From Pseudomonadota bacterium (GTDB lineage: Bacteria > Pseudomonadota > Alphaproteobacteria > Acetobacterales > Acetobacteraceae), in NCBI GenBank assembly GCA_021815835.1, contig JAKAZN010000012.1, positions 1 to 12,372 on the forward strand: a stretch of DNA of 12,372 bases, read 5' to 3'. Below are positions 9,052 through 9,692 of this stretch, one piece after another. Under the pieces are notes generated by a model that was not told where the DNA came from, did no database searches, and worked only from the letters and a program-made list of their open reading frames with translations. Made by a program: the position numbers and the translations under genes. Each line of letters starts with the position of its first letter. The first letter of the stretch is position 1.

Positions 9052-9076
9052 GGCGGATCGCGTCCGCAGGCGGCGC

Positions 9077-9106
9077 TTGATCGCCCCCCCCGGAATGGGC
9101 CACACT
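9077..9106 (+). promoter_or_regulatory. Weak candidate promoter upstream of infC
   Basis: TTGATC at 9077-9082 (5 of 6 bases of the -35 consensus) is followed after an 18-nt spacer by CACACT (9101-9106), a 3-of-6 match to the -10 consensus. The spacer holds a run of eight C. It is plausible as a separate infC promoter but not compelling. Confidence 0.25.
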
Positions 9107-9124
9107 GCAACTGGCCCCTTCCGG
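9090..9124 (+). terminator. Imperfect 13-position hairpin between folK and infC (terminator or infC leader structure)
   Basis: CCGGAA (9090-9095) pairs with TTCCGG (9119-9124), and GGGCCA (9097-9102) pairs with TGGCCC (9112-9117). One mismatch (T9096/C9118) separates the two halves, and the loop is 9 nt. The hairpin begins 39 nt after the folK stop and ends 20 nt before the infC Shine-Dalgarno. No T-tract follows, so it could be a folK terminator without a U-run or a structured infC leader. Confidence 0.5.
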
Positions 9125-9144: not shown

Positions 9145-9158
9145 AGGAGAACACCATA
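9145..9158 (+). promoter_or_regulatory. Shine-Dalgarno plus ATA start codon of infC
   Basis: AGGAG at 9145-9149 is followed by a 6-nt spacer and ATA at 9156-9158, which is in frame with IF-3. The in-frame ATG at 9171 has only GAGG (9163-9166) at an unusually short 4-nt spacing. Rare infC start codons (AUU in Escherichia coli) underlie autoregulation, because IF-3 rejects non-canonical starts. Confidence 0.7.
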
Positions 9159-9692
9159 GCAAGAGGACCCATGGCCGCGCCGCCTACCCGCGACGGCCCC
9201 CGCGTGAACGAAGAAATCCGCGCCGCGCAAGTGCGGCTGATCGACCAGGACGGCGAGATGCAGGGCGTGATGAGCGCGCGGGACGCGCTCAATCGCGCCT
9301 TTTCCGTGGGCCTCGACCTGCTCGAGATCAGCCCCAACGCCGAGCCGCCGGTCGTCAAGATCCTCGACTTCGGCAAGTTCAAATACGAGCAGCAGAAGAA
9401 GAAGAACGAGGCCAAGAAGAAGCAAAAAGTTATCGAAATCAAGGAAGTGAAAGTCCGCCCCAATATCGACGAAAACGACTACCAGGTGAAGATGCGCGCC
9501 GTGAAGTCGTTCATCGAGGAGGGCGACAAGGTCAAGGTCACCCTCCGCTTCCGTGGCCGCGAGATGGCGCACCAGGAAATCGGCGCCAAGGTGCTGGAAC
9601 GTATCCGTACCGAAATGGACCCGGTGACCAAGGTGGAACAATTCCCGCGCATGGAGAACCGCCAGATGGTCATGGTGCTCTCCCCGCGCTGA
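9156..9692 (+). CDS. infC: Translation initiation factor IF-3 (probable ATA start)
   Basis: IF-3 binds the 30S subunit, prevents premature 50S joining and proofreads the start codon and initiator tRNA. From the ATA the product has 178 residues; from the ATG at 9171 it has 173. The N-terminal domain contains DGPRVNEEI and [19 protein letters not shown]. The basic linker ([15 protein letters not shown]) follows, and the C-terminal domain has [25 protein letters not shown] and the ending [13 protein letters not shown], all classical. The ATA start is inferred from an ideally spaced AGGAG and from the in-frame codons reading (M)ARGPM, a plausible alphaproteobacterial IF-3 N-terminus. Neighbours are unusual: folK upstream and an oxygenase cassette downstream, in place of thrS and rpmI-rplT. 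A strong hairpin follows the stop. Confidence 0.96.

Follow-up and report, generated by a model that had tools for sequence, protein, structure and literature searches.

A predicted non-canonical ATA start codon of infC, conserved among Acetobacteraceae, and its likely place in IF3 feedback

Initiation factor IF3 represses translation that begins at codons outside the set AUG, GUG and UUG, and it autoregulates its own gene, infC, according to the relevant passages of two papers (PMC5472188; PMC4611024). The portion of one of them devoted to this autocontrol describes it with an ATT start in E. coli and an ATC start in Streptomyces (PMC5472188). In S. aureus, an AUA start of infC is marked by ribosome density in the presence of retapamulin (Ribo-Ret), and the authors, in the part of the paper that deals with it, consider autoregulation of the gene likely (PMC13009471). 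Here we describe an infC gene of the Acetobacteraceae that resembles these systems in its start site.

The infC start site and its conservation

The window, by which we mean the whole 12,372-nucleotide stretch analysed, is a contig (C556) of an incomplete genome. An earlier note, made from the sequence alone, had proposed that infC begins here at an in-frame ATA (9156-9158, + strand), six nucleotides behind an AGGAG motif (9145-9149) and upstream of an ATG (9171-9173). All of these positions are correct, and the codons between read (M)ARGPM in the infC frame (ATA GCA AGA GGA CCC ATG), as it had said. The AGGAG, read from the sequence, is the Shine-Dalgarno (SD) element of the proposed start. 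Counted from ATA, infC spans 178 codons plus the stop (9156-9692). The 173-residue reading frame beginning at 9171 is identified as IF3 by the TIGR00168 equivalog (E 2.8e-74), and PDB chains of IF3 match the frame as well (best from E 1.1e-59). The frame is open from an in-frame stop at 9078-9080, and a scan of the 25 codons separating that stop from ATA 9156 found no ATG, GTG or TTG.

For comparison we assembled 240 infC loci: 30 from the genomes of relatives (one being the window's own), 80 from named records, 30 from a class-wide search and 100 further stretches. The class-wide search matched 276 of 289 genomes. The 100 stretches were picked from 120 further places among the matches listed, ranked by score; since these were listed in descending order, infC genes of low score are under-sampled. 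Merging identical upstream stretches reduced the close set (the named records L031-L106, some of which, a few, have doubtful titles, together with the genomes of the same family) from 99 to 90 loci, and the class set from 141 to 140. The titles of three records (L034, Nitrosovibrio; L104, Acidobacteria; L108, Asaia bogorensis) fit their infC sequence poorly, possibly through errors of binning or naming.

An SD match of at least five bases to TAAGGAGGTGA lies upstream of the conserved core in 89 of the 90 distinct close loci. Start codons were assigned by scoring in-frame start-like codons behind this match. The test that the earlier note had suggested, whether AGGAG-N6-ATA (or ATT/ATC) is conserved in Acetobacteraceae and Rhodospirillales together with the codons that follow, came out in its favour: 88 of the 90 close loci, the window's own among them, were assigned ATA (74), CTG (7) or ATC (7), and ATG, GTG or TTG was assigned in none of the 88. 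The two loci left without an assignment are L077, which meets a contig end, and L093, in which the frame breaks after the site and before the core. The latter, from Asaia astilbis, keeps both SD and ATA, and its broken frame may be an error of sequencing or assembly. Only start-like codons were admitted to the scoring, so the control on frame matters. At an aligned spacing of 4-8 from the best SD, 88 of 89 close loci have a start-like codon in frame, against 1 of 89 in each of the shifted frames; for the class the corresponding counts were 85 of 99 in frame and 2 and 4 of 99 out of frame. A stricter count of the codon anchored on the SD chose wrongly where two candidate codons lay three bases apart, and this spacing window with its frame controls took its place. 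Under an SD-first rule, the best SD of two loci (L003, L081) points to the ATG at codon 6, though ATA is present in them too. The seven loci with CTG in place of ATA are of Roseomonas type (L017, L020, L021, L022, L057, L060, L070) and have a similar SD, with A-R-G-P following.

Class-wide (n=140), the assigned codons were ATA (81), ATC (28), ATT (6), TTG (5) and ATG (3), with 17 loci unassigned. A non-canonical infC start is not universal in the class, 8 of the 140 loci being assigned ATG or TTG and 17 having no assignment. Two of the three ATG loci (L182, L183) also carry an in-frame ATA upstream, with the motif I-A-R. By eye, an ATG stands at the possible infC start of six class loci (L121, L157, L181, L188, L193, L200), of which the script assigned ATG only to L193 and left the others unassigned; those six may have lost the non-canonical start. 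In a sample of 29 loci from the phylum, four of which belong to the class itself, many have, again by eye, ATC, ATT or ATA at the equivalent place.

Diversity among the 88 close loci, aligned at the start, is 0.70 at positions -45 to -18, 0.24 in the SD and 0.14 in the start codon itself. Codons 2-5 (A R G P, 9159-9170), which would form an unannotated N-terminus of IF3, have diversities of 0.29, 0.18 and 0.53 at codon positions 1, 2 and 3, compared with a flat 0.72, 0.71 and 0.70 upstream. These codons vary as coding sequence does, and the stretch upstream of the SD is unconserved. Arginine occupies codon 3 in 85 of 88 close loci and proline codon 5 in 87 of 88. Within the body of infC, ATA is the rarest isoleucine codon (11 of 971, or 1.1%, against 812 ATC and 148 ATT). 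At codon 1 of the close loci it makes up 74 of the 81 isoleucine codons, with a binomial probability of 3e-135 that ignores relatedness and so exaggerates the significance, as these sequences are not independent of one another. Among the class loci, ATA accounts for 81 of the 936 isoleucine codons in the stretches read and for 81 of the 115 that stand at assigned starts. A quick protein tree of the 88 rows, weakly supported (6 of 85 inner branches starred), implies at least seven changes of start codon among ATA, ATC and CTG. As a control, rplT was read at 28 of 30 loci in the relatives' genomes (the pattern did not find the other two), and all 28 begin with ATG.

The bare pattern is of little use as evidence. 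AGGAG-N6-ATA occurs at least once in 12 of 200 shuffled windows, and the incomplete genome holds 6 copies as against 20 of a reversed control pattern; a count of the pattern, with those 12 shuffles and 6 genomic copies, was dropped as an argument. What stands above chance is the position of the motif, in frame before infC, and its conservation. The infC start is almost certainly the ATA at 9156, judging by this comparison, which settles the question insofar as sequence is able to.

IF3 feedback and other readings of the start

We consider it very probable that the window encodes an AUA-started IF3 of 178 residues under feedback of the E. coli type. In the cell, AUA 9156, positioned by AGGAG, would be decoded by initiator tRNA to begin a protein reading fMet-Ala-Arg-Gly-Pro, and IF3 would destabilise 30S initiation complexes formed on this codon. 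A rise in free IF3 would then lower its own translation and a fall would relieve it, a loop like that of E. coli infC with a different codon. The observations behind this proposal are the sequence itself, the frame, its conservation, the replacement of ATA within the close group only by non-canonical codons, and the ATG of the control gene. Autoregulation of the window gene by IF3 is suggested by analogy with E. coli. The gene encodes IF3 and, by sequence comparison, pairs an SD with a start other than AUG, GUG or UUG; it fits such a loop in its SD, its discriminated codon and the non-canonical replacements in the close group. Changing the E. coli infC start to AUG is said to abolish autocontrol, to go by a cited title (Butler 1987). 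CUG is probably discriminated by IF3 as well, to judge from its place outside the canonical set given in the pertinent part of one paper (PMC4611024). In the 88 close loci with an assignment, the codon shifts between ATA, ATC and CTG and was never assigned as one that IF3 accepts; these shifts would form a natural evolutionary record of IF3 feedback. Elsewhere in the class, lineages with ATG or TTG may have lost the feedback, and they offer a comparative test of the question.

A reading that overlaps with this one is that both starts are used, AUA giving the full-length, feedback-controlled IF3 and AUG 9171 a basal form five residues shorter and insensitive to IF3; we regard this as improbable. 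The earlier note had called the GAGG before this ATG poorly spaced. The GAGG is present (9163-9166), but the description overstates the matter, for its aligned spacing to the ATG, worked out by hand, is 4, only slightly close. This nearby GAGG speaks for internal initiation, as does GAGGT at the same aligned spacing before the ATG of L003 and L081, but in the window the GAGG arises as a by-product of the codons AGA GGA. At codon 6, 54 of the 88 close loci have ATG, 5 have TTG and 29 have neither. Although 28 of the 54 have a four-base SD-like match within 14 nt, the other 26 have none, and a constitutive second start would weaken the feedback. Some internal initiation at ATG 9171, weak as it would be, is possible. 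A two-tier infC in some species, the window's included, with an IF3-repressed AUA and a weak internal AUG served by its own GAGG, strikes us as an outside chance; if it were true, species that have no such ATG would provide a natural control.

It is similarly doubtful that AUA is the true start and merely holds IF3 at a low level, without feedback. Non-AUG starts yielded about 10% of the AUG reporter output for three genes other than infC in S. aureus grown in poor medium, in the section of the paper reporting these assays (PMC13009471), as such a role would suggest. A weak start could, however, equally be GTG or TTG, neither of which was assigned in any of the 88 close loci, or could come from a weaker SD, whereas the match reaches at least five bases in 89 of 90.

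Initiation at ATG 9171 alone, the codons upstream forming a conserved untranslated leader, is very unlikely. No canonical start precedes this ATG in the frame, and 107 of the best 120 of 8000 scored database proteins begin at or after codon 6. Against it, codons 2-5 are conserved with a codon periodicity, and codon 6 is neither ATG nor TTG in 29 of 88 close loci. Moreover, 15 of 90 close loci (one of them the broken-frame L093) and 57 of 140 class loci lack any canonical start from the in-frame stop down to the asparagine of the conserved core; apart from L093, these have no ATG, GTG or TTG before the core, so a canonical start ahead of it is impossible there. The database starts bear equally on the claim that automatic gene callers miss the ATA, which holds for those 107 of the 120 and not for one NCBI protein among them (P0090), which starts with M exactly at codon 1. 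Its N-terminus, compared as protein, the form in which P0090 is known, is identical to that read from L007, whose codon 1 is ATA. Starts upstream of codon 1 were found by script for 11 of the same best 120 of 8000, and by eye for P0029, which has no anchor. The finding would correct the N-terminus of an essential protein, IF3. Finally, the stop/start overlap ATAG, coupling infC to an upstream reading frame, was rejected, as the TAG is missing from loci with C or T as the first base of codon 2 (10 of 88) and from those with CTG or ATC at codon 1 (14 of 88).

Upstream region and gene neighbourhood

A candidate infC promoter lies at 9076-9106 on the + strand, with CTTGATC (9076-9082) and CACACT (9101-9106) separated by an 18-nt spacer, and would give a leader of about 40-45 nt. 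Of the 88 close loci, 38 have CTTGA[TC] between -110 and -14 relative to the start, where 200 mononucleotide shuffles gave 2.8 on average and 9 at most. By eye, CTTGAT/C recurs some 65-108 nt before the infC start, often with a CACACT-like stretch about 18 nt further on, and the pair looks like a shared form of promoter. A scanner for consensus promoters found none for infC and did not recognise the pair. Between folK and infC lies a strong hairpin (9090-9124; z -3.7 in a 70-nt fold). We rejected it as a structure of the leader, since part of it falls within the candidate promoter and most of it would precede the predicted transcript start. The corresponding region of relatives (L002 and L003 left aside) forms other hairpins or weak folds, and the hairpin sequence is unconserved in those examined. 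No family reached threshold in an Rfam scan of the window.

By Pfam, folK (HPPK) precedes infC, and genes for a Rieske protein and PdxA follow it, in place of the infC-rpmI-rplT cluster of E. coli and B. subtilis; relatives were judged by rplT. In all 21 same-family genomes with both genes, rplT is on another contig or 1.3 Mb from infC, a count in which contig ends could hide some linkage. With infC apart from rplT in the family, the start codon has been kept independently of that linkage. In other families of the class, infC and rplT can be less than 1 kb apart (G025, G030, G031, G038).

Comparison with described infC genes

In the open-access literature searched, we found no report of an ATA start for an alphaproteobacterial infC. 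An arXiv paper on genes that prefer non-AUG starts reportedly names infC, and the general fact of this preference is probably already in print. According to the parts of the sources that describe it, E. coli offers the same gene with a non-canonical start and an expected IF3 feedback (PMC5472188), but its codon is AUU rather than AUA, and its infC is clustered with rpmI-rplT (PMC10931766), whereas in the window a Rieske-protein gene comes next. The infC of S. aureus has the same AUA start, seen by experiment in a Firmicute according to the account of that start (PMC13009471), while the start in the window is predicted from comparison. Streptomyces infC likewise has a non-canonical start, misannotated in most Streptomyces species by the account in the corresponding passage (PMC5472188), although the codon there is ATC in place of ATA and the phylum is a different one. 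The mechanism is not new; the Acetobacteraceae gene adds to these known systems a solid, well-supported further example, and its evolutionary pattern is clean.
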